64,000 nt of DNA from Massilia putida (GTDB lineage: Bacteria > Pseudomonadota > Gammaproteobacteria > Burkholderiales > Burkholderiaceae_D): NCBI RefSeq assembly GCF_001941825.1, contig NZ_CP019038.1:6386001-6450000 (forward strand), given 5' to 3'. The position numbers were made by a program, and so were the translations under genes. This document shows, piece by piece, positions 12,431-64,000 of the stretch (positions within the stretch are counted from its first letter, which is position 1; each line of letters starts with the position of its first letter). Under the pieces are notes generated by a model. It was not told the DNA's origin, did no database searches, and was given only the letters and a program-made list of their open reading frames with translations.

Positions 12431-12456
12431 TAACACCATCGACAGGAGGAGAAGAC

Positions 12457-13428: not shown

Positions 13429-13471
13429 ACGCCTCTGCTGTCATTAAAGAATCCACTGAAAGGTTTTGCCG

Positions 13472-13993: not shown

Positions 13994-14002
13994 GAGGCCA
14001 GC

Positions 14003-16063: not shown

Positions 16064-16064
16064 C

Positions 16065-44349: not shown

Positions 44350-44353
<4 letters not shown>

Positions 44354-45720: not shown

Positions 45721-45729
45721 GGCGTCTCC

Positions 45730-46650: not shown

Positions 46651-46672
46651 ATTGGTCTCCTTGATGGTCTGA

Positions 46673-46963: not shown

Positions 46964-46981
46964 GGTGGTCTCCGAAAGTCG

Positions 46982-48091
46982 TTATTTGCGCTGCAGGCTG
47001 CGCAGCTTGTCCATGTCGATCTCGACACCGAGACCGGGGCCGGCCGGCACCTGCAGCTCGAAGTCGCGGTACACGAGCGGTTCGCGCAGCACTTCCTGGG
47101 TCAGGAGCAGGGGGCCGAACAATTCCGTGTCCCAGGCCAGGTCGGCGAAGGTCGCGCAGACGTGGGCGGTCGCCGCGGTGCCGATGCCGCCTTCGAGCAT
47201 CGTGCCGCCGTACAGGCCGACGCCGGCCAGGCGGGCGACGGTGGCGACTTCCAGCGCGGGCAGCAGGCCGCCGGACTGCGCGATCTTGACCGCGTAGACG
47301 TCGGCGGCCTCGATGCGGGCGAGGGCCAGCGCATCGACCGGGCCGTGCAGCGCCTCGTCGGCCATGATGGCGACGTCGAAGCGGCGCGTCAGGCGGGCCA
47401 GCATGGCCGTGTGATGGGCTTTCACGGGTTGCTCGATCAGGTCGATGCCGCCCGCTTCCAGCTGCGCGATGCCGCGCACCGCGTCGGATTCGTTCCACGC
47501 CTGGTTGACGTCGACGCGCACGCTGGCGCGGTCGCCCAGGGCGCGCTTGATCGCCAGCACGTGGGCGACGTCGTCGTCGACGCTGCGCAGGCCGATCTTC
47601 AGCTTGAAGATGCGGTGGCGGCGGATCTCCAGCATGTGTTCCGCCTCGGCGATGTCCTTTGCCGTGTCGCCGCTGGCCAGGGTCCAGGCCACCGGCAGCG
47701 TGTCGCGCACGCGGCCGCCCAGCAGGTCGGACAACGGCACGTTCAGGCGGCGCGCATGGGCGTCCAGCAGGGCCGTCTCGAGGGCGCACTTGGCGAAGCG
47801 GTTGCCCTGGATGGTCTTGCGGATCTTCGCCATCGCCTTGGCCGGCTGCGTCGCGTCCATGCCCACCAGCAGCGGGGCGATATGCGTGTCGATATTGACC
47901 TTGACGCTCTCGGGGCTTTCGTCGCCGTAGTTCAGGCCGCCGATGGTGGTCGCCTCGCCCCAGCCCTGGATACCGTCGGCGCAGCGGACGCGGACGAGCA
48001 CCAGGGTCTGCGTGTTCATCGTCGCGACGGACAGCTTGTGCGGCCGGATCGTCGGTACGTCGAGTAAGAAGGTTTCGATATGTTGTATCAT
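46982..48091 (-). CDS. catB: Muconate cycloisomerase
   Basis: 369-residue enolase-superfamily enzyme lactonising cis,cis-muconate. The KxK base is in RIFKLKIGLRS; metal ligands are Asp in RVDVNQAWNE, Glu in IDLIEQPVKA and Asp in AIMADEALHG; the second Lys is in YAVKIAQSGG. The N-terminus IETFLLDVPTIRPHKLS is the MLE pattern. There is no clear ribosome site before the ATG (the leader is AT-rich), so initiation may depend on an unstructured leader. First gene of the eight-gene operon. Confidence 0.95.
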   Translation of the reverse strand: MIQHIETFLLDVPTIRPHKLSVATMNTQTLVLVRVRCADGIQGWGEATTIGGLNYGDESPESVKVNIDTHIAPLLVGMDATQPAKAMAKIRKTIQGNRFAKCALETALLDAHARRLNVPLSDLLGGRVRDTLPVAWTLASGDTAKDIAEAEHMLEIRRHRIFKLKIGLRSVDDDVAHVLAIKRALGDRASVRVDVNQAWNESDAVRGIAQLEAGGIDLIEQPVKAHHTAMLARLTRRFDVAIMADEALHGPVDALALARIEAADVYAVKIAQSGGLLPALEVATVARLAGVGLYGGTMLEGGIGTAATAHVCATFADLAWDTELFGPLLLTQEVLREPLVYRDFELQVPAGPGLGVEIDMDKLRSLQRK

Positions 48092-49196: not shown

Positions 49197-49871
49197 ATGA
49201 AACCAATGAAAGAACCTAGCGACCAACCCAACGGCAAGAAAGCCCCGGCGGAACCCGAGCGCAATCTGCGCGCCCAGGGGCAGCGCACGCGCAATGCCAT
49301 CATCGAGGTTGCGAAGGGCCTGCTGCTGGAAGGGGGGAGCCTGGAATTCACCTTGCGCGAGGTCGCGCTGCGAGCCGGTATCAGCATCAGCAATCTCCAG
49401 TATTACTTTCCGACGCGGCTCGCGGTGCTGCGGGCGGTCGTCGAGCCGGTGGTCGAGGCCTATTTGGGTGAGCTGCGGCAGGCGCTGACCGCCGAAGCGT
49501 CGTCCCGCGCGATGATCGATGCCTTGGTCGATCGCGCCCTCGAGGATGCGAAAAATGCCGAGCGCACGGCGCTGTGGTGGCATTTCGTTTCGCTGGCCGC
49601 CATCGATCCGGAGTGCTCGCAGCTGCTCGACGAATGGTACGAGGAAGTGACGCCGGGGATCGCGAAGTTCATCCGCGCCGTCGACCCTGCGTGCAAGCCG
49701 GCCGACAGTCTGCACCGCGCCACGCTGCTCATCGCAATGGCCGACGGCCTCAGTTTCCAATTGGGTGCCGGCCGCCGCAAGCGCAGCTACACGCGCGGCC
49801 TCGACGCCAAATTCCGCGCGGCCGTCGACTGCATCCTTCTGGGCGGGATGCCGCGCGCGGCGGACGGCTAG
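49197..49871 (+). CDS. TetR-family transcriptional regulator
   Basis: 224 residues. N-terminal TetR HTH (RNAIIEVAKGLLLEGGSLEFTLREVALRAGISISNLQYYFP) after a charged 25-residue leader, then a helical ligand domain with WWHFVSLAAIDPECSQLLDEWYE. The effector is unknown. An alternative ATG at 49206 has better spacing to AAAGG. Followed by a strong terminator, then the acyl-CoA dehydrogenase gene, which it may control. Confidence 0.85.
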   Translation: MKPMKEPSDQPNGKKAPAEPERNLRAQGQRTRNAIIEVAKGLLLEGGSLEFTLREVALRAGISISNLQYYFPTRLAVLRAVVEPVVEAYLGELRQALTAEASSRAMIDALVDRALEDAKNAERTALWWHFVSLAAIDPECSQLLDEWYEEVTPGIAKFIRAVDPACKPADSLHRATLLIAMADGLSFQLGAGRRKRSYTRGLDAKFRAAVDCILLGGMPRAADG

Positions 49872-50040: not shown

Positions 50041-51330
50041 ATGATTCGTCTGTACAAGACCACGGCATTGCCGCTGGCGGGCCTGAGCGGCTTCGAGACC
50101 CCGCTCTCGGAAGAGGAAACCGCAATCCAAAACACGGTGCACCGCTTCGCGCGCGACGTGTTGCGCCCCGTCGGCCGCCAACTCGACGGCATGGCGCCGG
50201 AAGAGGTGATCGCGCCGGGCTCGCCATTCTGGTCCGCGATGTTCGAGAGCGCGAAACTCGGCCTCGATCCGCAGCTGATCGCCCAGTTTCCGCCGGAAAT
50301 GGCGATCCGCATCGAATCGCTCATCGGCGAGGAACTCGGCTGGGGTGATCCGGGCCTGGCCATCTCGATCGGGGTCGCGACGGCGCCGCTGATGATGGCG
50401 CAGTCGCTCGGCAACCAGGAGCTGATCGACCTGTGCACGGGCAAGATCGGCTGCTGGATGAACACGCAGCCCGACCGCGGGTCCGACGCGGCGATCCTGT
50501 ACCGCGAGGAACTGAGCGCCAGCGGCCGCCAGCCGGTCGGCAACGTCAGCGCGAAAGTGGGCGAGGACGAGATCGTCATCAACGGCCAGAGCTCGGCGTG
50601 GATCTCGAACGGCTCGGTGGCGCAGGTCGCGCTCGCGTACATGGCGGCGGATTACGGCGACGGTTTCTACGGCACCGGCGAAAACAGCGCATTCACCAAC
50701 GGCATCGGCTTGATCATCCCGCTCGACCTGCCGGGCGTCTCGCGCGGCAAGCCGCTGGACAAGATCGGCCAGCGCGCCCTGCCGCAGGGCGAGATTTACT
50801 TCGACAACGTCCGGGTGCCGAAGCGCTTCGCCGTCGCGCTGCAGGACGAGTATCTCGGCAACCTGACGTCGATGTGGTCGTACGCCGGCACGCATATGTG
50901 CCAAGTGTTCGTGGGCGCCGCGCGCGCGGCGTTTGAACTGGCGCTGGCGTACTGCCACGAGCGCAAGCAGGGTGGGGCACTGCTGATCGAGCACCAGATG
51001 ACGCAGCTGCGCCTGGGCGATATGCTGCGTCGCCTGGAGATGGCACGCGCGATCGCCCGCCGCAGCCTCGCGTACGCACGCATGTCGCCGCAGAGCCATC
51101 CGTTCGTGACGGCCCAGGCCAAGGTCAGCGTGACGGAAGAGGCGATGAAGATTACGCACGAGGCGATGCAGCTCCTGGGCGGCAACGCGACCACGCGTGA
51201 ATTCCCGATCGAGAAGATGTTCCGCGACGTTCGTTCCGCACTGATCGAGGATGGCGAAAACTACGTCCTGACGTCGCGCCTGGGTGTGCTGGCTGGACGC
51301 CTGTACCAGAACGGCTGGACGCGGGAGTGA
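50041..51330 (+). CDS. Acyl-CoA dehydrogenase family protein
   Basis: 429-residue flavoprotein. N-terminal helical domain (EEETAIQNTVHRFARDVLRPVGRQLDG), beta domain (CWMNTQPDRGSDAAILY, VINGQSSAWISNGSVAQVALAYM), C-terminal helical domain (LLIEHQMTQLRLGDMLRRLEMA, ITHEAMQLLGGNATTREFPIEKMFRDVRSALIEDGENYVL). A Glu near the end (IEDGENYVL) sits where the catalytic base is found in the common families. Substrate unknown. AAAGGAGA precedes the ATG. It heads an operon with two membrane proteins. Confidence 0.85.
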   Translation: MIRLYKTTALPLAGLSGFETPLSEEETAIQNTVHRFARDVLRPVGRQLDGMAPEEVIAPGSPFWSAMFESAKLGLDPQLIAQFPPEMAIRIESLIGEELGWGDPGLAISIGVATAPLMMAQSLGNQELIDLCTGKIGCWMNTQPDRGSDAAILYREELSASGRQPVGNVSAKVGEDEIVINGQSSAWISNGSVAQVALAYMAADYGDGFYGTGENSAFTNGIGLIIPLDLPGVSRGKPLDKIGQRALPQGEIYFDNVRVPKRFAVALQDEYLGNLTSMWSYAGTHMCQVFVGAARAAFELALAYCHERKQGGALLIEHQMTQLRLGDMLRRLEMARAIARRSLAYARMSPQSHPFVTAQAKVSVTEEAMKITHEAMQLLGGNATTREFPIEKMFRDVRSALIEDGENYVLTSRLGVLAGRLYQNGWTRE

Positions 51331-51332
51331 TC

Positions 51333-51968
51333 ATGGACGCCAAAACCATCATCCTCTGCAGCGCCACGGTCCTGCTGCTGGCGACCTCGCTGATCTACGG
51401 CCTCAAATTCCTCGGGCGGCGCAACTACCTGCTCGGCGTCGAGTGGCTCGTTGTGACCTTGTCGACGTCGAACCTGCTCGTCTACCTGCTGAGCGGCGCG
51501 CAGACCGCCTACAAGATCTCGTACTTCTGCGACGCGTTTTCGCGCGGATTCGGCATTCCCGTCATCGCCACGGCGGGCCTGATGGCGGTGACGCACCGCT
51601 ACAAGCCGTCGACGTTCACGGACATCGTGTTCTTTGTCGGTGCCATCGCCGGGACGGCCGTGCTGGTGTCGGGTGGACTCGTCGCGAAACCGCTGCCGTA
51701 CTTCTATGTGCTCATGTGGACCGCGTACTCGGTCTATCTCGCATACTTCGCCTGGCGCCTGATGCGCGCCGGGCAGACCGGCTACGCGCTGGGCGTGGTC
51801 GTCGCGCTGGTGCTCGGGGAGGCTGTCGCCTGGACCTACGACCTGTTCCAGTTCCCCCACGACGACGGCCGCCTGATGTTTTACACGTTCGCGCTGACGA
51901 CCTGGTCGTACACGGTGGTGCAGCTGTATTACGCCTATGGCGCGCTGGAACGCGTGGAGGCCAAATGA
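51333..51968 (+). CDS. Seven-helix membrane protein of unknown function
   Basis: 211 residues, about seven transmembrane helices (TIILCSATVLLLATSLIYG through TFALTTWSYTVVQLYYAYG), with short loops and no signal peptide. I do not recognise the family. It starts 2 bases after the acyl-CoA dehydrogenase stop with GGGAG upstream, and its stop overlaps the next ATG by 4 bases, so it is translationally coupled to the following membrane protein; the two probably form one complex. Confidence 0.75.
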   Translation: MDAKTIILCSATVLLLATSLIYGLKFLGRRNYLLGVEWLVVTLSTSNLLVYLLSGAQTAYKISYFCDAFSRGFGIPVIATAGLMAVTHRYKPSTFTDIVFFVGAIAGTAVLVSGGLVAKPLPYFYVLMWTAYSVYLAYFAWRLMRAGQTGYALGVVVALVLGEAVAWTYDLFQFPHDDGRLMFYTFALTTWSYTVVQLYYAYGALERVEAK

Positions 51969-52693
51969 GAGCCGCGCGTTTCACGGCCTGGACGGCCATC
52001 GTCGGCGGCCTGTTCGCGTACACGAACGTCGCCCTGGTATTGATGGCTACGGGCGGGAACACGGAGGCGATCCTGCACGGCGCCACCATGTTGGCCCTGC
52101 CGACAGGCACCCGCGACCTGTTCCGGTGGGGGATGTGCGCCGATATCGTTGGATTTTATTTGCCCGTCCTCGCTATCGGGGCGTATCTATGGCACCGCCA
52201 GCGCGAGCAGACCGGTGCCATGGGCGACATGGCGCTGCTGGCGATCCTTTTATACGCGGTGGTTGGCGTCGCGGGAGCATCGCTGCAGCTTGCGGCCCTG
52301 CATCCGCTGGCGCAGATGTACGCGGGCGGGAACGAGTCCGTCAGGGCCGCCGCTGACGCGGCGTGGACCGCCATTGCGCAGGGGAGTCAGCGTGGCCTGT
52401 GGTGGAGCGAAGGGCCCGTCGTGCTGTTCTGGGGCCTCGTCGTCGGTCCCCAGCTCGGCAAGGAGGAATGGGGCAGACCGCGCCTGTTCCTGCTGAAGGC
52501 GACCGGCTGGTGCTTCGGCCTGTTCTTCGTGTGCGGCATGTTCGACGCGCTGGCGCCCCTGATGAAGGCGATGCTAGTGATCGTCGTGCTGATCTTCCCG
52601 TTGTGGATGCTGTCGTTCGGCGGCCAGTTGCTGCGCCATGCGCGCTACCAATCCGCGCCGGGACAGGCAACGTTGACCGGGAAGGGGCTATAA
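51965..52693 (+). CDS. Six-helix membrane protein of unknown function
   Basis: 242 residues with about six transmembrane helices (FTAWTAIVGGLFAYTNVALVLMA to MLVIVVLIFPLWMLSFGGQLL). Family not recognised. It overlaps the previous gene (ATGA), which marks a two-gene membrane module linked to an acyl-CoA dehydrogenase. A role in electron transfer or lipid handling would be guesswork. Confidence 0.75.
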   Translation: MRAARFTAWTAIVGGLFAYTNVALVLMATGGNTEAILHGATMLALPTGTRDLFRWGMCADIVGFYLPVLAIGAYLWHRQREQTGAMGDMALLAILLYAVVGVAGASLQLAALHPLAQMYAGGNESVRAAADAAWTAIAQGSQRGLWWSEGPVVLFWGLVVGPQLGKEEWGRPRLFLLKATGWCFGLFFVCGMFDALAPLMKAMLVIVVLIFPLWMLSFGGQLLRHARYQSAPGQATLTGKGL

Positions 52694-53112
<419 letters not shown>

Positions 53113-53132
53113 CCCACCGCGCGCCCACGCGA

Positions 53133-53168
53133 GGCCGGATCCGACGTTCGTTCGGATCCGGCCTTTTT
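53133..53168 (+). terminator. Rho-independent terminator after nitronate monooxygenase remnant
   Basis: GGCCGGATCCGA and TCGGATCCGGCC form a 12-bp perfect stem around a 7-base loop, followed by five T. It closes the acyl-CoA dehydrogenase operon. Confidence 0.9.
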
Positions 53169-53223
53169 GTTTACCTCCCAAACATTACCGCGTCGTTGTT
53201 TTTCAATTTTCTGTTTGTATGTT

Positions 53224-53250
53224 TGACCTAAGTTTAGTAGAATGTCCTAA
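53224..53250 (+). promoter_or_regulatory. TGNCCTAA direct repeat before DUF1329 gene
   Basis: TGACCTAA at 53224 and TGTCCTAA at 53243, 19 bases apart, 34 bases before the DUF1329 start. It mirrors the repeat before the acyl-CoA dehydrogenase gene (TTG-CCTAA, GTA, ATGT-CTAA all shared). Confidence 0.55.
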
Positions 53251-53283
53251 AAGAGCGACAACCTTCATCAACAGGAGACGAAG

Positions 53284-54648
53284 ATGGACATCAAGACGAT
53301 TTTTCTCGGTACGACGCTCGTACTCGGCGCGGCAGCCCACGCCGCGGTCGGCGAGCAGGAAGCGGCGAAGCTCGGCAAGGAGTTGACACCGGTGGGTGCC
53401 GAGCGCGCGGGCAACAAGGACGGGACGATTCCCGCCTGGACCGGCGGCGACATGAAGGCGCCGGCCGGCTGGAAGACGGGCGCGCCGCGCCCCGATCCGT
53501 ACGCGGCCGACAAGCGCCTGTTCTCGATCGACGCGTCGAACGTCGACCGCTACAAGGACAAGCTGGCGCCTGGCCAGGTCGAGATGGTGAAGACGATCCC
53601 CGGCTACCGCATGGACGTCTACGCGACGCACCGCTCGTGCGGCTACCCGGAGTTCTTCTACGAGCGTACGAAGAAGAATGCATCGACCGCGAAGATGGCT
53701 GCCAACGGTCACGACATCGCCGAGGCCATCGGCGCCGCCGTGCCGTTCCCGATCCCCCACAGTGGCGCCGAGGCGGTCTGGAACCACAAGTTGAACTGGA
53801 AGGGCGAAGGCTTCACGTCGCATTACGCCGGCTACATCCCGCCCAAGGGCAGCGACAGCATCGGCGAGCCGATCGCGCAGGACGAATTCGAAACGTCGCC
53901 CATGTGGTCGCCGTCGAACAAGGGCATCGCCGACGCGCGCGGCATCGAATACCAGATGCTCAACGTGTTCACCGGCCCGCCGTCCATCGCCGGCGATGCG
54001 ACGCTCGCGCAATACAACTTCTCCAAGCCGAACGACGTCTGGCTGTACTTCGCGAGCCAGCGCCGCGTGCGCCGCGCACCGACGTATCAGTACGACGCGC
54101 CGGTGCTGAACACCGAAAACCTGGAAATCGTCGACCAGTACCTGCAGTTCAACGGCCCGCTGGACCGCTACGACTGGAAGATCGCCGGCAAGAAGGAGGT
54201 CTACGTCCCGTACAACACTTATCGCCTGAATTCGCCGGCGAACAAGGTCGCGGACGTCGTCAAGCCGAAGTTCTTCAGCCGCGACCTGACCCGCTACGAG
54301 CTGCACCGCATGTGGGTTGTGGAAGCGACGCTCAAAGAAGGCATGCGCCACATGTTCCCCAAGCGGACCTTCTACATCGACGAAGACACGTGGACGATCC
54401 TCGTCGAGGACATGTACGACGCTCAGGGCAAGGTCTGGCGCACGTCCGAGATGGGACCGTACATGGCGTGGGAAGTGCCCGCGTGCGTGTGGGCGGCCAA
54501 CAGCAGCTATGACCACGTCACGGGCCGCGTCCTGCTGGACCGCGTCCTCGCCGGCGGCAAGGAACCCGACTGGCTGGCCGCGCGTGAAGGCCGGCTGAAG
54601 GCGGGCACTTTCGAACCGGACGGCCTGCGCCGCGCGACGACGCGCTAA
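53284..54648 (+). CDS. DUF1329 protein, secreted
   Basis: 454 residues. Signal peptide (KTIFLGTTLVLGAAAHAA), then the DUF1329 pattern: AAKLGKELTPVGAERAGNKDGTIPAWTGG near the start and repeated WTILVEDMYDAQGKVWR-like strands at the end. The family is thought to have a lipoprotein-carrier-like (LolB-like) half-barrel fold and is almost always encoded beside DUF1302. AGGAGA precedes the ATG. First gene of a seven-gene or longer run; likely a periplasmic carrier of a hydrophobic ligand. Confidence 0.88.
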   Translation: MDIKTIFLGTTLVLGAAAHAAVGEQEAAKLGKELTPVGAERAGNKDGTIPAWTGGDMKAPAGWKTGAPRPDPYAADKRLFSIDASNVDRYKDKLAPGQVEMVKTIPGYRMDVYATHRSCGYPEFFYERTKKNASTAKMAANGHDIAEAIGAAVPFPIPHSGAEAVWNHKLNWKGEGFTSHYAGYIPPKGSDSIGEPIAQDEFETSPMWSPSNKGIADARGIEYQMLNVFTGPPSIAGDATLAQYNFSKPNDVWLYFASQRRVRRAPTYQYDAPVLNTENLEIVDQYLQFNGPLDRYDWKIAGKKEVYVPYNTYRLNSPANKVADVVKPKFFSRDLTRYELHRMWVVEATLKEGMRHMFPKRTFYIDEDTWTILVEDMYDAQGKVWRTSEMGPYMAWEVPACVWAANSSYDHVTGRVLLDRVLAGGKEPDWLAAREGRLKAGTFEPDGLRRATTR

Positions 54649-54673
54649 TCACACGATAAAAGGGGATGCGGAG

Positions 54674-56587
54674 ATGAAGACACGTGATGATGTGGAAGTG
54701 CGCCTGGTGCGCACTCTGGCCGCGACGGCCGTCCTGGGCGCGCTGGCGGCGGCGGGATCTGCCCGCGCCGCCGAGTGGCCGCTGGCCAGTGGCTGGTCGG
54801 TGAACCTGGATTCGACGGTGTCGTTCGGCCTGGCCGTGCGCACGTCGAAGACGGATTGCCGCAACGTCGGCAATGACAACGGCGGCTGCGTCGGCGATGC
54901 GGTGACGCCGCTGCAGGCGGCGTATCCGAATGCGTATTCGATGAACCTGGATACGCTGCGCCTGAACCAGGACCTGGGCAACCTGCACTACAAGAACGGG
55001 CAGGTCGTATCGGCCAACCTGCAGTACACGGCCGACCTGTTCGTGAAAGGCGAGGACGGCTGGAGCGGCCTGCTGCGCGGCGTCGTCAACCACGACTTCG
55101 CCATCGACCATACGAAGCGCGGCCCGCTCGATCCGGACGCGAAGCATTTCGCCGTCAGCAATCCGCGCTGGCTCGACGCCTATGTGACGAAGGAATTCGA
55201 CCTCGGCGACCAGCAGGCGCGCGTCCGCGTCGGCAACCAGGTGCTGAGCTGGGGCGAGGACCTGTACATCACGGGCGGCGTGAACTCGATCAATCCGATC
55301 TACGTGCCGGCCGCGCACCAGCCGGGCACGCCGCTGAAGAATCTGTTCATCCCGGCACCGATGGTGTCGTTCAGCACCTCGCTCGCGCACGGCCTCGGCG
55401 TGGAAGCGTTCTACCAGTGGAAGTGGAACCGCTTCGAATTCGACGCGCCCGGCACGTTCTTCTCGACCAGTAACTTCCTCGGCAAGGGCGGACGCGGGAT
55501 CTACCTGCCGACGTCCGTCCTGAACGCGGCCGTGGCGCCGTTCGGCCTGCCGCCGTTCCCGGCCGGGACGATCGGCAACACGGGCACGGTCATCACGGGA
55601 CCGAATCCCGCCACCGGCCTGCCGTACGACCGGCGGCTAAGCTTCGGCGAGCTGGCGAATCCCGCGACCAACCCGGCCGGGGCAATCATCGGCGCGGGTA
55701 CCGTCATCCCGCGCGCCGCCGACCGCACGCCGAGAAACGGCCAGGGCGGTATCGCACTGCGCTACCAGTTGCCCGACTCCGGCAATGAACTGGGCCTGTA
55801 CTACACCCGCTACGACGACAAGGTGCCGTTCGTGAGCTATCAGGTGGTCGGCACCAATGCGAATCCGTTCGGCTGGGAGGCCGCGCTGGACTACGGCCGC
55901 AACCGCAACCTGTTCGGCGTGTCGTACAACTTCCAGGCCGGCGAATGGGCCATCGGCACCGAACTGTCGTTCCGTCCGCGCGACGGCGTGGCGATCGACC
56001 CGAGCTCCGTGATCGACCCGCGCAATGCCCATTACTGCAATGCGCTCACTGATTTCACGGCGGCGCCCGTCGGCACGTATTGCCGCGGCTGGGTCGACAC
56101 GCAGCACTACCAGCTGCACATGACGGGCATCCACATCATGTCGCCCTCGGGTTCGTTCGGCGGCCTGCTGCGGCTGCTCGGCGCGAGCGAGGGCACGATC
56201 ACGGCGGAGACGGCGGTCGCGCACTATCCGAAGTTGAGGCTGGACGGCAGCGTGCCGTACGCCGTCACGGCCGACTACAAGCTGCCGACCAAGACGTCGT
56301 GGGGCATGGTGGTCGCGAGTTCCGTGACGTATCCGAACGTGTTCGGCACGCGCGCGTCGGTGGCGCCCGACATCGCAATCTCGCAAGGCCTGTCCGGCGT
56401 GGCCGCGACGGCGTTGCCGGGCTTCGTCAAGGGGGCGGGTGCGGCGGTGCTCGGCGCGACGATCGACTTCAAGGTCAAGCCCGAGACGAAGCTGCGCGTG
56501 GACGTGACGCAGAACTGGGGCGGTGGGGCGAGCAATCTGCTGCGCGACCGTAATTTCATGACCATCAGCCTGACGTCGTCCTTCTAA
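54674..56587 (+). CDS. DUF1302 outer-membrane protein
   Basis: 637 residues. A signal peptide with an Arg-bearing leader (VRLVRTLAATAVLGALAAAGSARA), then the DUF1302 opening SGWSVNLDSTVSFGLAVRT. Later it shows many alternating amphipathic strands, VRVGNQVLSWGEDLYITGGVN (a conserved family motif), and a terminal Phe (MTISLTSSF), consistent with a beta-barrel. It lies 25 bases after the DUF1329 gene. Proposed to form the outer-membrane channel of the locus. Confidence 0.87.
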   Translation: MKTRDDVEVRLVRTLAATAVLGALAAAGSARAAEWPLASGWSVNLDSTVSFGLAVRTSKTDCRNVGNDNGGCVGDAVTPLQAAYPNAYSMNLDTLRLNQDLGNLHYKNGQVVSANLQYTADLFVKGEDGWSGLLRGVVNHDFAIDHTKRGPLDPDAKHFAVSNPRWLDAYVTKEFDLGDQQARVRVGNQVLSWGEDLYITGGVNSINPIYVPAAHQPGTPLKNLFIPAPMVSFSTSLAHGLGVEAFYQWKWNRFEFDAPGTFFSTSNFLGKGGRGIYLPTSVLNAAVAPFGLPPFPAGTIGNTGTVITGPNPATGLPYDRRLSFGELANPATNPAGAIIGAGTVIPRAADRTPRNGQGGIALRYQLPDSGNELGLYYTRYDDKVPFVSYQVVGTNANPFGWEAALDYGRNRNLFGVSYNFQAGEWAIGTELSFRPRDGVAIDPSSVIDPRNAHYCNALTDFTAAPVGTYCRGWVDTQHYQLHMTGIHIMSPSGSFGGLLRLLGASEGTITAETAVAHYPKLRLDGSVPYAVTADYKLPTKTSWGMVVASSVTYPNVFGTRASVAPDIAISQGLSGVAATALPGFVKGAGAAVLGATIDFKVKPETKLRVDVTQNWGGGASNLLRDRNFMTISLTSSF

Positions 56588-56588
56588 A

Positions 56589-58967
56589 ATGCTTGCGCAC
56601 CTCATCCTCCGTCTCGAGCGCACCCTGTTTGGGCATCGCCTCGCATTCCTCCTCGTGCTGGCGGGCTTCACGGCCTTCATGGGGCTGAACGCGACGAAGC
56701 TCCAGCTCGAAGCCGGATTCGAAAAGCAGCTGCCGCAGGGCCACGAGTACATCCGGACGTTCGAGAAGTTCCGCACGCAGCTGTTCGGTGCCAACCGGCT
56801 GACCATCGCCGTCCACGCCCGCCACGGCGACATCTGGAACCCGGCCGCGCTCACGCAGGTGCTCAAGGTCACGGACGCCGTGACGTACCTGCCGGGCGTG
56901 GACCGCACGAGCGTGACGTCGCTGTGGACACCGAATGTGTTCTTCACCGAGATCACGGAAGACGGCTTCCGGGCCGAACCCGTGGCCGGCGGCGACATCG
57001 TGCCGGAGAAGCTGTCCGCGGACGTTATCGCGCAGATGCGCCAGCGGACGACGGCCGGCGGCCACGTCGGCACGCTCGTCGCGCGCGACCAGACGAGCGC
57101 CCTGATCACGGCGCAGCTGACCGACGTCGATCCGCGCACCGGCAAGAAGCTCGACTACATCGCGTTCAACCGGCTGCTCGAGGAAAAGATCCGGCGCCCG
57201 TTCGAGAACGATCAGGTCGAGGTCGAGATCATCGGCTTCGCCAAGCAGATCGGCGACATCGCCGACCGGTCGGATGAGGTGACGCACTTCTTCGCCATCG
57301 CCTTCCTGCTGACCGGCATCGCCGTGTACTGGTATTGCCGTTCGATCCGCCTGACCCTGCTGCCGCTCGCGTGCTCGCTCACGTCGCTCGTGTGGCAGTT
57401 CGGTACGCTGCACCTGCTGGGCTTCGGGCTCGATCCGCTCGCGATCCTCGTGCCGTTCCTCGTCTTCGCGATCGGCGTCTCGCACGGCATCCAGCAGATC
57501 AACTTCATCATCCGCGAAGTCGCGCAAGGCAAGGATTCGTTCGCCGCCGCGCGCCACAGCTTCACGGGCCTGTTGATCCCCGGTTCGCTGGCGCTCATCA
57601 CGGCGCTCGTGAGCTTCGTGACGCTCGTGCTCATCCCGATCCCGATGATCCGCGAGCTGGCGATCACGGCGGCCATCGGCGTCGGCTACAAGATCCTCAC
57701 GAACCTCATGATGCTGCCCGTCGCGGCCTCGTATTTCCGCTTCACGCCGGAGTATGCGCAGCGGGCGCTCGTGCGGCGCGAGAAGCAGGGCGCCTGGCTG
57801 GGCATCGTGGCCCGTATCGCCAAGCCGCGCAATGCCCTCGTCATGACCCTCATCGGCGCGACGGTGTTCGGCCTCGCGTTCTGGAAGAGCCAGGGCCGCC
57901 ACATCGGCAGCCTGCAGGCCGGGGCGCCGGAGCTGCGCGCCGAGTCGCGCTACAACCGCGACGCCGCCGCCATCGTCGACCGCTTCGACGTGGGCCTGGA
58001 CTGGCTGACCGTCGTGTTCGAGGCGACGCCGGAACGCCAGGGCGAAGTCTGCTCGCGCGCCGACGAGCTCCTGTTCATCGACGAATTCGCGTGGCACATG
58101 GAGGGCGTGCCGGGCGTCGTGTCGGCCGATTCGGCGGCCGGGCAGCTCAAGCTGTACAACGCGGGCCTCAACGAGGGCAACCCGAGGATGGCCACCGTGG
58201 CGCGCGATCCGCGCGGGCTCGGCTCGCAATTCCAGGGCGTGAACAACCGCATCGCCGGACTGGCGTCGAACGACTGCCGCGTGCAGGGCGTGAACCTGTA
58301 CTTGCCGGACCACCGCGCGACGACGATCAAGAGCGTGATCACGGCAGTGAAGGACTACCGCGCCGCGAACCGGCTGGACGGCGTGAACGTCAGGCTCGCG
58401 AGCGGCAACGCGGGCGTGCAAGCGGCCACGAACGAGGTGCTGGAAGAGAGCGAGATGCCGATGATGCTGTACGTGTACGCGGCGATCCTCATTCTCGTGT
58501 TCCTCGTGTACCGCGACTGGCGCGCGATGATCGCCTGCTGCCTGCCGCTCACGGTGGCCACGTGGATCGGATACTGGTTCATGAAGGAATTCCAGATCGG
58601 CCTGACGGTGGCCACTCTGCCCGTGATGGTTCTCGCGGTCGGCATCGGCGTGGACTACGCCTTCTACATCTATAACCGCCTGCAGGTGCAGCTGGCGAAC
58701 GGTCTGGATTTCACGCGTGCCCTCGAACTGGCGCTGACGGAAACGGGCCTGGCCACCGTGTTCACGGCCATCACGCTGTCGATCGGCGTCGCGACGTGGA
58801 CGTTCTCCAGCTTGAAATTCCAGGCCGACATGGGGGCGCTGCTGACCTTCATGTTCATCGTGAACATGGTCATGGCCATCACCTTGCTGCCGGCCTTCGC
58901 AGCGGTGCTCGAGTGGCTGTTCCCGCGCCGCGGTCCGGTGCACATGCCGGCGATCCTGCACCACTGA
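56589..58967 (+). CDS. MMPL/RND-superfamily transporter
   Basis: 792-residue inner-membrane protein with two repeats of one helix, a large periplasmic loop and five helices. The RND core shows LDPLAILVPFLVFAIGVSHGIQQIN in repeat 1 and VATLPVMVLAVGIGVDYAFYIYNRLQ in repeat 2 (the Asp-Tyr proton-relay motif). It groups with the hydrophobe exporter class that accompanies DUF1302 and DUF1329 genes, not with AcrB-type pumps (no partner membrane-fusion protein). It starts 1 base after the DUF1302 stop. Confidence 0.9.
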   Translation: MLAHLILRLERTLFGHRLAFLLVLAGFTAFMGLNATKLQLEAGFEKQLPQGHEYIRTFEKFRTQLFGANRLTIAVHARHGDIWNPAALTQVLKVTDAVTYLPGVDRTSVTSLWTPNVFFTEITEDGFRAEPVAGGDIVPEKLSADVIAQMRQRTTAGGHVGTLVARDQTSALITAQLTDVDPRTGKKLDYIAFNRLLEEKIRRPFENDQVEVEIIGFAKQIGDIADRSDEVTHFFAIAFLLTGIAVYWYCRSIRLTLLPLACSLTSLVWQFGTLHLLGFGLDPLAILVPFLVFAIGVSHGIQQINFIIREVAQGKDSFAAARHSFTGLLIPGSLALITALVSFVTLVLIPIPMIRELAITAAIGVGYKILTNLMMLPVAASYFRFTPEYAQRALVRREKQGAWLGIVARIAKPRNALVMTLIGATVFGLAFWKSQGRHIGSLQAGAPELRAESRYNRDAAAIVDRFDVGLDWLTVVFEATPERQGEVCSRADELLFIDEFAWHMEGVPGVVSADSAAGQLKLYNAGLNEGNPRMATVARDPRGLGSQFQGVNNRIAGLASNDCRVQGVNLYLPDHRATTIKSVITAVKDYRAANRLDGVNVRLASGNAGVQAATNEVLEESEMPMMLYVYAAILILVFLVYRDWRAMIACCLPLTVATWIGYWFMKEFQIGLTVATLPVMVLAVGIGVDYAFYIYNRLQVQLANGLDFTRALELALTETGLATVFTAITLSIGVATWTFSSLKFQADMGALLTFMFIVNMVMAITLLPAFAAVLEWLFPRRGPVHMPAILHH

Positions 58968-58977
58968 GAGGTCAAAC

Positions 58978-59925
58978 ATGAAACTCATCCGATTCCTTCC
59001 GTTCGTCGCCCTGGTCTCGTGCGCTGCGGGCGCAACGACGGCGCAGCACTGGCCGACGATGACCGCATCCCAGCACGTCGCCAACGCGGTCCGCGCGCCG
59101 CTGCTGGCCGCCGCGCGCGTCGGTAACCGCATCGTCGCCGTCGGCGACCATGGCGTCGTGCTGCTGTCCGACGACGGCAAGACGTACCGGCAGGCGAAAA
59201 CTGTCCCGGTCCGCTCGATGCTGACGTCCGTCCAGTTCCTCGACCCGCAGCACGGCTATGCGGCTGGCCACGACGGCGTCGTCCTCGGCACGCAGGACGG
59301 CGGCGAGACGTGGACGCTGCTGCGCGCCACGCCGGGCGAAGAGCAGCCCATCCTGTCGTTCCACTTCGACAGCCAGGAACACGGCATCGCCGTGGGCCTG
59401 TACGGGTGGGCGATCGAAACGCGGGACGGCGGCCGCACCTGGACCGAGCGCCACGTCGGCGCGGGCGAAGACGCCGACCGCCATCTGTTCCACGTGTTCG
59501 CGTCGCCCCACGGGACGCTGTTGATCGCGGGCGAGGCGGGGACCTTGTACCGCTCGGCCGATGGCGGCAAGACCTGGGACGGGATCTCCACCGGCAACAA
59601 GGGCTCCCTGTGGTACGGGACGGCGCTCGTCGACGGCACCTTGCTCGTCTGCGGCATGCGCGGCCACCTGTATCGCAGCAGCGATGACGGCCGCACATGG
59701 CAGGCCGTTCAATCAGGCACGACGCAGTCGCTGACCGGCATCGCGCAGATGGGGGACGGCAGCGTCGTCGTCGCCGGCATGGCCGGGACGGCATTGCGCA
59801 GTCTGGACGGCGGCAGGACGTTCACGCTCACGCAGCGCCCCGAGCGCGAACCCCTCACGGCGGTCATTGCTGCCGGCGTCCGGTCGCCCGTGCTGATGTC
59901 GATGGCGGGGCCGGTGGCGCACTGA
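58978..59925 (+). CDS. YCF48/BNR-repeat beta-propeller protein, secreted
   Basis: 315 residues. Signal peptide (IRFLPFVALVSCAAGATT), then six or so BNR-type repeats with the SDDGKTY, TQDGGETWTLL, TRDGGRTWTE, SADGGKTWDGIS, SSDDGRTWQAV and SLDGGRTFTL Asp-box pattern. Resembles the Hcf136/YCF48-like propellers found next to MMPL transporters in hydrophobe-handling clusters. It may be a periplasmic scaffold between the MMPL pump and the DUF1302 barrel; inferred. Confidence 0.85.
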   Translation: MKLIRFLPFVALVSCAAGATTAQHWPTMTASQHVANAVRAPLLAAARVGNRIVAVGDHGVVLLSDDGKTYRQAKTVPVRSMLTSVQFLDPQHGYAAGHDGVVLGTQDGGETWTLLRATPGEEQPILSFHFDSQEHGIAVGLYGWAIETRDGGRTWTERHVGAGEDADRHLFHVFASPHGTLLIAGEAGTLYRSADGGKTWDGISTGNKGSLWYGTALVDGTLLVCGMRGHLYRSSDDGRTWQAVQSGTTQSLTGIAQMGDGSVVVAGMAGTALRSLDGGRTFTLTQRPEREPLTAVIAAGVRSPVLMSMAGPVAH

Positions 59926-59952
59926 TTCATTCGAACGGGCAGGCAAAGCATC

Positions 59953-61434
59953 ATGAAACACAAGAACTTGAAAGAACCGGGACCCGCGCTCACGCGGCGC
60001 GGCTTCCTCGGCGCGGCGGCTTCCGTCACGGCGGCGGCGGCCGTGCTGCCGACGGGCGCCAGCGGCGCGGCGACGGCGAAAGCGGACGGCGACGTGCTCG
60101 ACGTCGCGATCATCGGCGCGGGTCTCGCCGGCCTGACGGCGGCGCGCGACCTGCGCCGCGCCGGCTGCGAATCGTTCGTCGTCCTGGAAGCGCGTGACCG
60201 CGTCGGCGGCCGCACGCTCAACCACGATCTCGGCAACGGCTATGTTTCCGAAGCGGGCGGTCAGTGGATCGGCCCCGGCCAGACGGCGATCCTGGACCTC
60301 GCGCGCGAACTCGGCGTCGGGACGTTCCCGACGTACTGGCAGGGCAAGCTCACGATCCTCGCGGACGGCAAGCGGGCCACGGTCGAAAGCGATGGCGGTT
60401 TCGGGACCGATCCTGTGCTGCGCCGCGAGCTGGAGGAGATGGCGAAGCTGGTGCCGTCGGGCGCGCCGTGGACGTCGCCGCGCGCCGCGGAGTTTGACGC
60501 GATGTCGCTGGCCGACTGGCTGGCGAAGAAGAACCTCGCGCCGGCCGACCAGTTCAACTGGGTGCTCGCGGCGACGCTGACGAGCGGCACGGCGCCGACC
60601 AAGATCTCGCTGCTGCACTACCTCGCGCTGATCAACTCGGCCGACTGCAATTACGAACGGCTCGAAGCCGTGAAGGGCGGTGCGCAGGAGACGCGCATCG
60701 CGGGCGGCTCGCAGATCCTGGCGACGAAGATGGCGCAGGCGCTGGGCGACAAGGTGCGTCTGGCCAGCCCCGTGCTGCGCATCGAGAACTGGACGGACGG
60801 CCCCGTCGCCATCCACACGCCGCGTGGCGTCGTCCGGGCGCGTTCCGTGATCGTCGCGCTGTCGCCGCCGCTGTGCAACCAGATCGCGTTCGAGCCGCCG
60901 CTGCCGGACAAGCGCCGCGAACTGCAGCGGCGCTGGCCCGCGAATGCGCCGATGCGCAAGACGGTGCACGTCTACAAGAAGGCGTTCTGGCGCGAGAAGG
61001 GCTTCAACGGCTGGGTGGTGCAGGCGCAGGGTCCGGTGCTGTGGGCGTTCGACAACTCGCCGGAAGACGTTTCGATCGGCGTCCTCACGGCGTTCGTGAA
61101 CAACGGGATGCTGCCGACCGACCCCAAACAGGCCGAGGCCGAATTGTCGCGCATCTATGCCCAGGCGTTCGGCGACGAAGCGCTGCACCCGGTCGCCTAC
61201 CACGACTACGACTGGGGCAAGGCCGACCGCTGGTCGCTCAGTTGCGCCTCGCCGGTCCCGCCCGGGTTCTATACCACCTATGGCGACGCGCTGCACCCGG
61301 CCGTCGGGCGCCTGATCTGGTCGGGCACGGAGACGGCGGACATCTGGGCGACGTCGATGGACGGCGCCGTGCGCTCGGGCCACAAGGCCGCACTGCAGGC
61401 GCTGCGCGATGTCGCGGCGCGCAAAACGGCATGA
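59953..61434 (+). CDS. Tat-exported flavin monoamine oxidase-type enzyme 1
   Basis: 493 residues. A twin-arginine signal LTRRGFLGAAASVTAAAAVL indicates export of the folded flavoprotein. FAD-binding Rossmann motif DVAIIGAGLAGLTAARDLRRAG and RVGGRTLNHDLGNGYVSEAGGQWIGPGQTA follow the monoamine oxidase pattern. The C-terminal RLIWSGTETADIWATSMDGAVRSG closes the FAD site. Its tandem partner at 61457 is closely related. Substrate is an amine or an allylic or aliphatic alcohol-like compound; not determinable here. First of two paralogues that share a diheme cytochrome c downstream. Confidence 0.87.
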   Translation: MKHKNLKEPGPALTRRGFLGAAASVTAAAAVLPTGASGAATAKADGDVLDVAIIGAGLAGLTAARDLRRAGCESFVVLEARDRVGGRTLNHDLGNGYVSEAGGQWIGPGQTAILDLARELGVGTFPTYWQGKLTILADGKRATVESDGGFGTDPVLRRELEEMAKLVPSGAPWTSPRAAEFDAMSLADWLAKKNLAPADQFNWVLAATLTSGTAPTKISLLHYLALINSADCNYERLEAVKGGAQETRIAGGSQILATKMAQALGDKVRLASPVLRIENWTDGPVAIHTPRGVVRARSVIVALSPPLCNQIAFEPPLPDKRRELQRRWPANAPMRKTVHVYKKAFWREKGFNGWVVQAQGPVLWAFDNSPEDVSIGVLTAFVNNGMLPTDPKQAEAELSRIYAQAFGDEALHPVAYHDYDWGKADRWSLSCASPVPPGFYTTYGDALHPAVGRLIWSGTETADIWATSMDGAVRSGHKAALQALRDVAARKTA

Positions 61435-61456
61435 ACTGATTTCTGAAGGTGACAAC

Positions 61457-62926
61457 ATGGACAAAGAAGACAATCGCAACGATGGGCCCGCGCTGACGCG
61501 CCGGGGCTTCCTGGGCATGGCGACGGCGGCGGCCGCGACGGCGGCGTTGCCGCGCGTGGCGGCGGCCGGCGCGGGCATCGATCCGGACGTGCTCGACATC
61601 GCGATCATCGGCGCCGGCCTGGCCGGCCTGACGGCGGCGCGCGACCTGCACCGCGCCGGCTGCGAATCGTTCGTCGTGCTGGAGGCGCGCGAGCGCGTGG
61701 GAGGGCGCACGCTCAACCACGATCTCGGCAAGGGCTATTTCACGGAAGCGGGCGGCCAATGGATCGGTCCGGGCCAGACGGCGGTCGCCGACCTGGCGCG
61801 CGAGCTCGGCGTCGGCACGTTCCCGACCTACTGGGAGGGCAAGACGACGTTCTTCGCTGGCGACGCGCATGCGACGGTCGCCCTCGACGGCGGCTTCGGC
61901 ACCGACCGCAAGCTGACGAGCGAGCTCGAATCGATGGCGAAGCTCGTGCCGTCGGGTGCGCCCTGGACGTCGCCGCGCGCAGCGGAATTCGATGCGATGT
62001 CGCTCGGCGACTGGCTGTCGAAAAAGAATATCGCGCCGCAGGACCAGATCGGCTGGACGACGGGCTCCGTGCTCTCGGGCGGCAACGTGCCGTCGCGGCT
62101 GTCGCTGCTGCACTGGCTGTCGATGATCAATTCGGCCGACTGCATCTACGACCGTCTGGAATCGGTCAAGGATGCGGCACAGGGCACGCGCATCTCGGGC
62201 GGCTCGCAGATCCTGTCGATCAAGATGGCCGAGGCGTTGGGCGACAAGGTGCGGCTGTCGAGTCCCGTGCTGCGCGTCGAACACTGGCACGACGGTCCGG
62301 TCACGATCCACACGGCGAGAGGCGTGATTCGCGCGCGCCACGTGATCGTCGCGCTGTCGCCGCCGCTGTGCAACCAGATCGCGTTCGATCCCCCACTGCC
62401 CGAAAAACGTCGCGAGATGCAGCGGCGCTGGCCCGCCGTCGCGCCGGCGCGCAAGACGGCGCACGTCTACAAGAAGACGTTCTGGCGCGACAAGGGCTTG
62501 AACGGCTGGATGATTCAGGCGAAGGGCCCGATTCTCTGGGCTTACGACAATTCGCCGGAAGACGCGTCGTTCGGCGTGATCAACGCGTTCGTCGCCAACG
62601 GCCACCTGCCGTCCGACCACGACGCTGCGGGCAAGGAGTTGGCGCGCATCTATGCGGAGGCTCTGGGCGAGGAAGCGCTGCATCCCGTCGCCTACTACGA
62701 CCACGACTGGGGCAAGGCCGACCGCTGGACGCTGACGTGCGTGTCGGCCATTCCGCCCGGCTTCTATATGAAATACGGGGAGGCGCTGCACCCGCCCGTC
62801 GGCCGGCTGATCTGGTCGGGCACGGAAACGGCCGATATCTGGGCCGGCTATATGGATGGCGCCGTGCGCTCGGGCCACAAGGCGGCGCTGCAGGCGCTGC
62901 AAGCAATGAATGCAAGGAGAGCATGA
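61457..62926 (+). CDS. Tat-exported flavin monoamine oxidase-type enzyme 2
   Basis: 489 residues, a tandem duplicate of the preceding gene with the same order of motifs: Tat signal LTRRGFLGMATAAAATAALP, DIAIIGAGLAGLTAARDLHRAG, RVGGRTLNHDLGKGYFTEAGGQWIGPG and GTETADIWAGYMDGAVRSG. Differences cluster in the middle of the protein (for example TTGSVLSGGNVPSRLSLLHW against AATLTSGTAPTKISLLHY), where the substrate chamber lies, so the pair may act on related but different compounds. The ATG at 61457 follows GAAGGTG. Its stop overlaps the cytochrome gene. Confidence 0.87.
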   Translation: MDKEDNRNDGPALTRRGFLGMATAAAATAALPRVAAAGAGIDPDVLDIAIIGAGLAGLTAARDLHRAGCESFVVLEARERVGGRTLNHDLGKGYFTEAGGQWIGPGQTAVADLARELGVGTFPTYWEGKTTFFAGDAHATVALDGGFGTDRKLTSELESMAKLVPSGAPWTSPRAAEFDAMSLGDWLSKKNIAPQDQIGWTTGSVLSGGNVPSRLSLLHWLSMINSADCIYDRLESVKDAAQGTRISGGSQILSIKMAEALGDKVRLSSPVLRVEHWHDGPVTIHTARGVIRARHVIVALSPPLCNQIAFDPPLPEKRREMQRRWPAVAPARKTAHVYKKTFWRDKGLNGWMIQAKGPILWAYDNSPEDASFGVINAFVANGHLPSDHDAAGKELARIYAEALGEEALHPVAYYDHDWGKADRWTLTCVSAIPPGFYMKYGEALHPPVGRLIWSGTETADIWAGYMDGAVRSGHKAALQALQAMNARRA

Positions 62927-63642
62927 TGAGTACGACAACGACACCGCGCAAGCCGGACATGGCGGCCGGCGCACGCAAGCCGCGCAGCCGCGCCAAGCGG
63001 ATCTTCGCCTGGTCGGGCGGCCTGCTGCTGGCGGCCGCCGTGGTCGCCGGCGCGATCTACGGACCGCAATTCGTCGGCCTGTACCAGGTCGGCAAGCAGA
63101 TCGACACGATCGCGGAAGACAACGCCCGCACCGGCGGCCCGTGGCCGCGCGCGACCGACGCGTGCGTCTACTGCCACGGTTACGACGGCAACGCGCGAGC
63201 GCAGACCTATCCGCGCCTCGCGGGCCAATCGAAGGACTACCTCAAGAAGCAGCTCGAGGGCTTCGCCGCAGGTACGCGCAGTGACCCGACCATGACGCCG
63301 CTGGCGCTGGGCATGTCGGAACAGGAGATCGATGCCTTCGCGGCGCATTTCTCGAAGATGGTCCCGCAGCCCAATGTGACCTTCCACGCCGATCATGCAG
63401 GCGCGGTGCGCGGCGAGGCGCTGGTCACCTCGAGCAGCTGCACGTCCTGCCACGGCCAGAAGCTGGAAGGCAATGGCGGCTTTCCACGCCTGGCGGGACA
63501 GGGCTACGACTACGTGCGCGACCAGCTGATGCGCTTCAAGGACGGCACGCGCCACGATCCGTCGGGCGCGATGACGGCCGTCGCCGGCCAGCTGTCGCAG
63601 CAGAACATCGACGACCTCGCGCAGTACATCGCCAGCAAATAA
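62923..63642 (+). CDS. Membrane-anchored diheme cytochrome c
   Basis: 239 residues from the first of two adjacent ATGs (62923; 62926 has better spacing to AAGGAG). One N-terminal helix (IFAWSGGLLLAAAVVAGAIYG) anchors it, followed by two class I cytochrome c domains with heme sites CVYCH (about 78) and CTSCH (about 175) and axial Met candidates in TMTPLALGMS and GAMTAVAGQLS. Placed directly behind two flavin oxidases, it is the likely electron acceptor, as CycN is for the amine oxidase NicA2 of Pseudomonas putida. Confidence 0.9.
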   Translation: MMSTTTTPRKPDMAAGARKPRSRAKRIFAWSGGLLLAAAVVAGAIYGPQFVGLYQVGKQIDTIAEDNARTGGPWPRATDACVYCHGYDGNARAQTYPRLAGQSKDYLKKQLEGFAAGTRSDPTMTPLALGMSEQEIDAFAAHFSKMVPQPNVTFHADHAGAVRGEALVTSSSCTSCHGQKLEGNGGFPRLAGQGYDYVRDQLMRFKDGTRHDPSGAMTAVAGQLSQQNIDDLAQYIASK

Positions 63643-63696
63643 CCCAGCAACACCGCAGTACGTATCCACCAAAACTTTTATTTCAAGGAGACTCTC

Positions 63697-64000
63697 ATGG
63701 CTAAGCATCCTGTCGTCGTCTACGGCGCAAGCGGTTACACCGGCATGTTGATCATGGACTGGCTGATCGATCAGAACATCCCTTTCACGGCCGTGTCGCG
63801 CAATGCGAAGCGGACGAAGGAAATGATGGAGCAGCGCGTCGTGCGCCTCGAATCGGCGCAGTACGAAATCATTGAAGCGGAGCACAACGTCGAATCGCTG
63901 ACGAATGCTTTCCGCGGCGCGAAGGTCGTGTGCAATACCGTCGGACCGTTCAGCAATTTCGGGCTCGTCGCCGTCGAAGCGGCGCTGAAGGCAGGTTGCC
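63697..64000 (+). CDS. Saccharopine-dehydrogenase-like NAD(P)-binding reductase, 5' part
   Basis: First 101 residues of a gene that runs off the right edge. The Rossmann motif VVVYGASGYTGMLIMDWL and the later GAKVVCNTVGPFSNFGLVAVEAALKAGC match the saccharopine dehydrogenase NADP-binding domain family, which includes trans-acting enoyl reductases. AAGGAG lies 6 bases before the ATG at 63697. It is probably the next gene of the DUF1329-to-cytochrome operon; the substrate-specific part is not visible. Confidence 0.75.
   Translation, partial: MAKHPVVVYGASGYTGMLIMDWLIDQNIPFTAVSRNAKRTKEMMEQRVVRLESAQYEIIEAEHNVESLTNAFRGAKVVCNTVGPFSNFGLVAVEAALKAGC

Follow-up and report, generated by a model that had tools for sequence, protein, structure and literature searches.

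A candidate mobile catabolic cluster in Massilia putida joining an envelope transport set to paired flavoproteins and a diheme cytochrome

Why should genes for a transport system of the cell envelope be strung together with two exported flavoproteins and a cytochrome c? The question is raised by a 64,000-nucleotide stretch of the Massilia putida genome (contig NZ_CP019038.1, positions 6,386,001 to 6,450,000), here called the window, always meaning the whole stretch. From position 53284 onward, a single plus-strand run of genes encodes a DUF1329 protein, a DUF1302 protein, an MMPL transporter, a YCF48-like propeller, two flavoprotein amine oxidoreductases (FAO1 and FAO2), a cytochrome c (CYTC) and a DUF5938 reductase. 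The run extends beyond the window end, where genes for a CoA ligase (AMP-binding), a thiolase (Thiolase_C_1 type) and a flavoprotein of the DAO family follow (P0001 to P0004 in L004, the reductase being P0001). We think it probable that the run forms a mobile cluster for the catabolism of a hydrophobic compound, most likely an amine, which would be oxidised in the periplasm by FAO1 and FAO2, with electrons passing to the cytochrome, before acyl-CoA breakdown. What is new here is the union of an FAO-cytochrome pair and an envelope set in one mobile catabolic cluster, plus the pattern of active-site residues described below; a search of the open-licence literature, mostly at the level of listings, returned no paper joining FAO, c4 cytochrome and DUF1302/DUF1329.

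Operon structure and conservation of the gene set

An earlier note on this DNA, made without database searches, had named these genes and proposed that they form one envelope oxidation system. All of them are present at that place on the plus strand, as Pfam scans and gene spacing confirm, with intergenic distances of -4 to 54 nt across eleven genes. The run opens with DUF1329, a LolA-like protein (53284..54648; PF07044, E 1.8e-126; PF17131 LolA_like, 7.2e-12), followed by DUF1302 (54674..56587; PF06980, 9.3e-119), an HAE3-like MMPL/RND inner-membrane transporter (56589..58967; PF03176, 5e-24), the YCF48-like propeller (58978..59925; PF14870, 3.9e-25), FAO1 (59953..61434), FAO2 (61457..62926), CYTC (62923..63642) and the NAD(P)-type DUF5938 reductase, which runs from 63697 to the window end at 64000 and on to L004:1231 (PF19362, 2.3e-49 for the whole protein). 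Between YCF48 and FAO1, the join on which the proposal of one system depended, the gap is 27 nt and no terminator-like or promoter-like site is listed.

The upstream boundary is marked by a plus-strand intrinsic terminator (53131..53165; 14-pair stem, T-rich tail), about 120 bp ahead of DUF1329. It splits the operon from an acyl-CoA dehydrogenase (50041..51330, plus strand; PF00441, 6.8e-26) and two membrane proteins, TM1 and TM2. The fold across 53128-53180 reaches -27.5 kcal/mol (z -5.42), and 0 of 200 shuffles were equally good. Terminator-like sites are not enriched over the region (11 against a shuffled mean of 9.4, sd 3.3), and the plus strand from 53165 to 64000 has a single further one, within the MMPL gene (57713). 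Since the acyl-CoA dehydrogenase lies 5' of the terminator, it is probably not co-transcribed with the operon starting at 53284, judging by the sequence. The earlier note had led the pathway through acyl-CoA dehydrogenase steps; here that link is loosened to a probably separate transcript, although in relatives the gene is often found near FAO (counts below).

To survey the wider distribution, we took one genome per species with an FAO alignment and grouped genomes by accession prefix. The 73 loci considered are the remainder of the best 80 of 514 confirmed stretches, a sample that leans to close relatives. The fetched flanks reached 10 kb at most, so neighbour counts are underestimates. Neighbours were called by tblastn with the window's protein over more than 40% of the query, or by clustering for PhyH and RidA; gene families were built by single linkage, with a Pfam scan on one member of most.

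Among these closest relatives, FAO occurs at 73 distinct loci in 62 genomes and 16 genera: Massilia, Pseudoduganella, Duganella, Rugamonas, Janthinobacterium, Ralstonia, Cupriavidus, Burkholderia, Paraburkholderia, Caballeronia, Pandoraea, Pelomonas, Variovorax, Pseudomonas, Marinobacter and Sphingomonas. The envelope and oxidation sets therefore co-occur outside the genus and are not limited to this strain. CYTC lies near FAO in all 62 genomes, TM1 in 46, the DAO-family gene in 37, the CoA ligase in 36, DUF1302 in 34, DUF1329 in 33, thiolase and a PhyH-type dioxygenase in 31 each, acyl-CoA dehydrogenase and MMPL in 29 each, the DUF5938 reductase in 28, RidA in 27, YCF48 in 26 and TM2 in 25.

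Among the matches listed, the closest copy is that of Massilia pinisoli JCM 31316 (L011), with identical gene order and 77-98% identity. A more distant copy, traced by tblastn, takes up about 22 kb of plasmid p1 of Cupriavidus sp. KK10 (unannotated; L085). It comprises the transport set, ligase, thiolase, reductase, DAO, acyl-CoA dehydrogenase and TM1, and FAO-CYTC units lie near either end of the cluster; TM2 was not found by tblastn there, while the rest of the set is present. Identity between the window and this plasmid is 57-64% for FAO, 65-88% for most other cluster genes, 41-45% for CYTC and 62% for TM1. In samples of the family and the order, FAO was found at E <= 1e-100 only in the window's own genome (1/116 and 1/399), with at most 13 and 3 candidates per genome scored, so that misses are possible. 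Given this absence from the other sampled genomes, the cluster looks accessory, and it is probably a sporadic, horizontally spread element.

Could an envelope operon and a redox operon simply have come to lie side by side by chance? The greater divergence of FAO than of most cluster genes between the window and the KK10 plasmid would fit such an accident, as would the 12 of 62 genomes whose flanks show fewer than two transport genes and fewer than two of the ligase, thiolase and reductase genes. However, at least two of the four transport genes lie near FAO in 34/62 genomes and all four in 20/62, across 10 genera. Gene order and strand differ among loci while the set stays together, which argues for selection to keep it together. 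The window's genome has six DUF1302 genes in 7.5 Mb, so by our own arithmetic a 21-kb stretch would hold one by chance about 2% of the time, a figure that is no formal test as the 62 genomes are related. Chance adjacency thus seems to us very improbable.

Two FAO types and a membrane-anchored cytochrome

FAO1 and FAO2 are Tat-signal proteins that share 73% identity and match Amino_oxidase (8.2e-51 for FAO1; PF01593, 3.5e-51 for FAO2). The FAO2 scan began at 61409, though a start at 61457 is more likely from the ribosome-binding site, judged by eye. In each protein the first 60 residues contain a single RR, at position 15 (motif only), and an RR precedes the FAD motif in 97/97 FAOs, the window pair included; five of 102 FAOs were excluded from this motif set because the FAD pattern was unmatched. 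All 50 structural matches listed are amine or amino-acid oxidoreductases. Amine oxidases of the MAO (monoamine oxidase) type carry a lysine close to flavin N5, and the FAD of MAO is bound by a cysteine. Both residues, K336 and C431 in FAO1, are present in all 97 FAOs and align with the MAO-A residues, which is consistent with a covalently bound FAD.

The two-residue aromatic cage of MAO-type amine oxidases, on the other hand, is not kept. FAO1 has A432 and S468 at the cage positions (the tyrosine-less type), and FAO2 has V then Y at the aligned positions (the tyrosine type). The first position is aromatic in 0/97 FAOs (V 58, I 27, T 10, A 2). At the second, 53 have Tyr, 43 a non-aromatic residue and one a gap, and both positions are non-aromatic in 43/97. 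Four more distant relatives without the N-terminal extension all keep Cys-Tyr.

We typed the FAOs by residue 468 before building trees. Placed on the 97-row tree, these labels (53 Y, 42 non-Y, two rows without a label) require 2 changes, where shuffled labels average about 31. One tyrosine-less group has members in Burkholderia, Paraburkholderia, Pandoraea, Cupriavidus, Pseudomonas and Marinobacter; the other is nested in the window's lineage, in which a separate duplication gave rise to FAO1 and FAO2. A 43-row tree rejects a single clade for all tyrosine-less rows (approximately unbiased test, p 4.6e-7; log-likelihood 91.7 worse); this tree kept column 468, which if anything favours the single clade, and its outgroup branches are long. 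As the outgroup has Tyr or Phe, two independent losses of the tyrosine are the simplest account, by parsimony on these sequences. We also looked for convergent residues outside the cage in the two tyrosine-less groups, and rejected the idea as giving no signal, with a threshold-dependent result: columns shared only by these groups numbered 4 against 1 and 0 in the controls at 60%, 3 against 0 and 0 at 70%, and 6 against 4 and 4 at 50%.

The two types usually travel together. At 27 loci with two FAOs, the window's included, 24 have one of each type, two have two Y copies (L020, L021), and one (L067) has a copy without a residue at site 468; L048 and L050 are the same place, and excluding the duplicate, mixed pairs make up 23/25. 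In 16 chosen genomes searched whole (E <= 1e-15 or E <= 1e-60), both types were found in 11, two Y copies in one (G516) and a single FAO in four (Y type in G506, G512 and G513, non-Y in G514). As pairing is usual and not obligatory, two successive steps fit better than one heterodimer.

CYTC (cytochrome c Pfam match, 6.3e-16) has two CxxCH motifs (residues 81 and 173) after an N-terminal hydrophobic stretch, and its best PDB matches are cytochromes c552 and c4. It is the next gene after 88/102 FAOs, a lower bound given that the gene caller missed at least the window's own CYTC. Within the clustered CYTC family, 89/90 have two heme motifs and 89/90 the hydrophobic stretch.

Akram et al. (2025; PMC12224317) described three clades of Tat FAOs with cytochromes, those of clade 1 being membrane-bound diheme c4-type proteins. 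Clade 1 pairs from B. metallica, P. aeruginosa and B. stagnalis were assayed; their reaction with O2 was about as slow as that of free flavin, and that with dissolved cytochrome was modest, for which the authors suggest the absence of the membrane as a cause (PMC12224317). Clade 1 as described there shares with our genes the Tat signal, the adjoining cytochrome of the same type, the amine-oxidoreductase family and some genera. At E <= 1e-15 the genome of B. metallica LMG 24068 yields two FAO matches and no others; both lie within this cluster, and for this reason we take FAO1 and FAO2 to be of the clade 1 kind, to which they likely belong. By analogy with characterised cytochrome-using relatives, they are likelier to be dehydrogenases than oxidases, and the name oxidase under which they were first noted is probably wrong. 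Akram et al. give the substrate as unknown for most enzymes and treat single enzymes, and the words neighbor, DUF and sphingosine are absent from the main text (PMC12224317); the setting among catabolic and transport genes, the two types of FAO and the loss of cage residues appear to be new here.

The nicotine enzymes NicA2 and Pnao with cytochrome CycN offer a precedent for two steps: they are likewise two Tat-exported FAO dehydrogenases with a co-encoded cytochrome c, acting successively (PMC9396064, PMC12224317). They differ in belonging to clades 2 and 3, with monoheme cytochromes of about 11 kDa (PMC12224317). Their first cage residue is aromatic (Trp427 in NicA2, Trp434 in Pnao), as in none of the 97 FAOs here, and they share 21-25% identity with FAO1 in fold alignments. 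To our knowledge, they have no link to DUF1302, DUF1329 or MMPL.

Taken further, and only tentatively, these patterns may outline a branch of the monoamine oxidase fold that lost its amine cage and became a periplasmic respiratory-chain dehydrogenase for hydrophobic, perhaps non-amine, compounds. It would usually work as a complementary Tyr/Tyr-less pair, built at least twice by separate duplications, and in many genomes would be fed by a dedicated DUF1302/DUF1329/MMPL/YCF48 line. Paired, cage-altered FAOs are a natural test of substrate change in the MAO fold.

Envelope transport and the likely substrate

From their sequences, DUF1329 is likely a periplasmic carrier of lipid-like compounds, DUF1302 likely an outer-membrane barrel with a C-terminal Phe (...TSSF), and the YCF48-like propeller likely secreted. 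The best NCBIfam match of the MMPL protein is TIGR00921 HAE3, at 140.6 bits and under the cut-off of 351.9. DUF1302, DUF1329, YCF48-like and RND genes thus lie within one operon, as in the AmeABCD-type envelope system described in 2018 from the monoterpene island of Castellaniella defragrans, which combines DUF1302, DUF1329, a YCF48-type protein (COG4447) and an HAE3-type RND protein (PMC6394551). Both systems group DUF1302, DUF1329, YCF48-type and RND genes in one cluster on a catabolic element. AmeABCD differs in its gene order, in being described without an FAO or c4 cytochrome, and in its role, as it is reported as an efflux system whose deletion reduces monoterpene tolerance (PMC6394551). 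A second comparison is provided by Pseudomonas putida PP_0765/PP_0766 and PP_2018/PP_2019, required for growth on Tween 20 and proposed as a transport system (PMC10866462). There, too, DUF1302 and DUF1329 are accompanied by a periplasmic protein and by a transporter of the multidrug-efflux type; the system differs in lying, by gene numbers, in two genomic places, and redox genes go unmentioned in that description (PMC10866462). When the locus was called undescribed in the earlier note, this was therefore right for the union of the two sets, but the FAO with its diheme cytochrome (PMC12224317) and the AmeABCD set (PMC6394551) had each been reported.

What might the substrate be? Clues come from the neighbours. 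H15, a P. aeruginosa strain, has a plasmid on which a Y-type FAO and cytochrome stand beside opposite-strand genes with the annotations coniferyl aldehyde dehydrogenase, choline dehydrogenase, alpha/beta hydrolase, CoA ligase, NAD(P)/FAD-dependent oxidoreductase and RidA, a gene set that would fit a route from amine to ketone to ester to acids. RidA-family proteins are of the imine deaminase type and act on imines, so the presence of this family near FAO in 27/62 genomes is a clue to an amine. The best models for the DAO protein, of the aminophosphonate and pipecolate oxidase types though under cut-offs, also speak for amine chemistry, as do the structural matches of the FAO fold given above. 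Together with the two FAO types, the RidA and H15 neighbours lead us to favour a hydrophobic amine as substrate and two oxidation steps, on the pattern of NicA2 and Pnao in nicotine breakdown; by this analogy an amine is most likely, and a non-amine is possible.

In such a pathway, DUF1302, DUF1329, the MMPL/RND pump and the YCF48 propeller would move the compound or its product through the envelope, perhaps inwards. Tat-exported FAO1 and FAO2, with putative covalent FAD, would oxidise it in two different periplasmic steps, and their electrons would pass, as in characterised relatives, to the anchored diheme c4-like CYTC and on to a terminal oxidase rather than to O2. The product would then enter the cytoplasm, be activated by the CoA ligase and be degraded by acyl-CoA dehydrogenase, thiolase, the DUF5938 reductase and the DAO-type oxidase.

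Several observations weigh against this pathway. The non-aromatic first cage position in every FAO weakens the case for an amine substrate. The window's genome has no close RidA, its best Rid matches being at 32-37% identity, and a PhyH match was not found there, in a search without a positive control. With cytochrome, the rates reported for clade 1 are low (kox1 of 290-2700 per M per s); a clade 1 enzyme from P. otitidis that has no cytochrome reacts faster with O2 (PMC12224317). The envelope set, in turn, resembles AmeABCD by gene families and description, and may export rather than import.

The cage loss leads to a different proposal, in which the FAO pair would oxidise a hydrophobic terpenoid, steroid or alkyl compound at a C-H or C-C bond, in the manner of the limonene dehydrogenase CtmAB with its two flavin subunits, the cytochrome being the acceptor and the Ame-like set handling the hydrocarbon. 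The non-aromatic cage positions would suit it, all the more as distant relatives keep Cys-Tyr, and AmeABCD lies on the monoterpene island of C. defragrans, the organism in which ctmAB start the limonene pathway (PMC6394551, PMC4109377). We nevertheless rejected membership of FAO1 and FAO2 in the CtmAB family: CtmAB is assigned to COG1233, the phytoene dehydrogenases (PMC4109377), and the covalent-flavin histidine consensus described for CtmAB and delta-24 desaturase (PMC11061730) is absent from both proteins. The four of 16 whole-searched genomes with one FAO make an obligate heterodimer unlikely, and the RidA neighbours point to imines. On this evidence a non-amine substrate is possible but doubtful.

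A further alternative is detoxification, with the envelope set expelling a toxic hydrophobic compound and the periplasmic dehydrogenases inactivating it, as proposed for sphBC and sphingosine. The tolerance phenotype of the ameABCD deletion (PMC6394551) is in line with this. So is the finding that P. aeruginosa requires sphBC, encoding a periplasmic oxidoreductase and a cytochrome c, to remove the toxic long-chain amine sphingosine normally, sufficiency not being shown (PMC11893366). The likeness lies in a Tat-exported periplasmic oxidoreductase and a cytochrome c tied to a hydrophobic amine. By their descriptions, however, these are other proteins: SphC is a lactone-oxidase homologue and SphB a monoheme lipoprotein cytochrome (PMC3900636, PMC5150637), and FAO1 and FAO2 are Amino_oxidase proteins with a diheme CYTC. 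We rejected homology and kept the analogy. The CoA ligase, thiolase and acyl-CoA dehydrogenase near FAO in 36, 31 and 29 genomes argue instead for full breakdown, and detoxification seems to us unlikely.

Catabolism of a hydrophobic amine, begun in the periplasm, thus remains our preferred account of the cluster. Clade 1 FAOs already had a likely electron acceptor, and the DUF1302/DUF1329/MMPL/YCF48 set is an envelope system. Both now stand in one conserved, partly plasmid-borne cluster, so that enzyme substrate and transporter cargo could be settled together.

Neighbouring genes and other loci

Upstream of the terminator, all on the plus strand, a TetR-type regulator (49197..49871; PF13977/PF00440) precedes the acyl-CoA dehydrogenase, which is followed by TM1 (51327..51968) and TM2 (51965..52693). 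Neither membrane protein has a Pfam match at E <= 0.001, TM1 having only sub-threshold rows at E <= 1. The TM1 structure model has seven helices (pLDDT 91.4) and no PDB match at E <= 0.001 among the 50 rows shown. These rows are receptors and rhodopsins at E 0.008 to 0.14, and we rejected kinship with them, reading the rows as no more than a shared seven-helix arrangement. The cluster family of the TetR at 49197 occurs at 31/73 loci, with two copies in the window region. A second TetR and TM1 pair lies about 9 kb past the window end (L004:9076-9750 and 9838-10518), its TetR 59% identical to the one at 49197 and its TM1 46% identical to the one at 51327. This suggests that the regulator and the seven-helix protein belong together as one unit, which may serve in sensing.

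Between TM2 and the terminator, at 52697-53112, lies what appears to be a broken nitronate monooxygenase remnant. An N-terminal stretch like that of the monooxygenase, read from the DNA, shifts to a different frame, and PF03060 is matched only weakly by the last 99 aa (E 0.073). Further upstream, minus-strand genes for aromatic degradation adjoin (44350-48091: a Rieske ring-hydroxylating dioxygenase alpha subunit, a catechol-type dioxygenase and a muconate-lactonizing-type enzyme), with a LysR regulator beside them at 48113.

Five of the six DUF1302 genes in the window's genome lie on a 457 kb replicon (G000:C2; loci L005 and L007-L010), each adjoining a DUF1329 gene whose product is 38-42% identical to the window's. 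Distant actinobacterial FAO relatives (L089, L091) adjoin genes annotated as DUF4345 and SCP2 sterol-binding. In Pseudomonas relatives that have just one FAO, of the Y type, it is followed by genes for an alpha/beta hydrolase and a sulfatase (L026:12052-15394, Pfam), and members of the hydrolase and sulfatase families are also found in L028 (around 12060-18100) and L025. This gene content hints that the substrate at these single-FAO Pseudomonas loci may be a sulfated or esterified hydrophobic compound.

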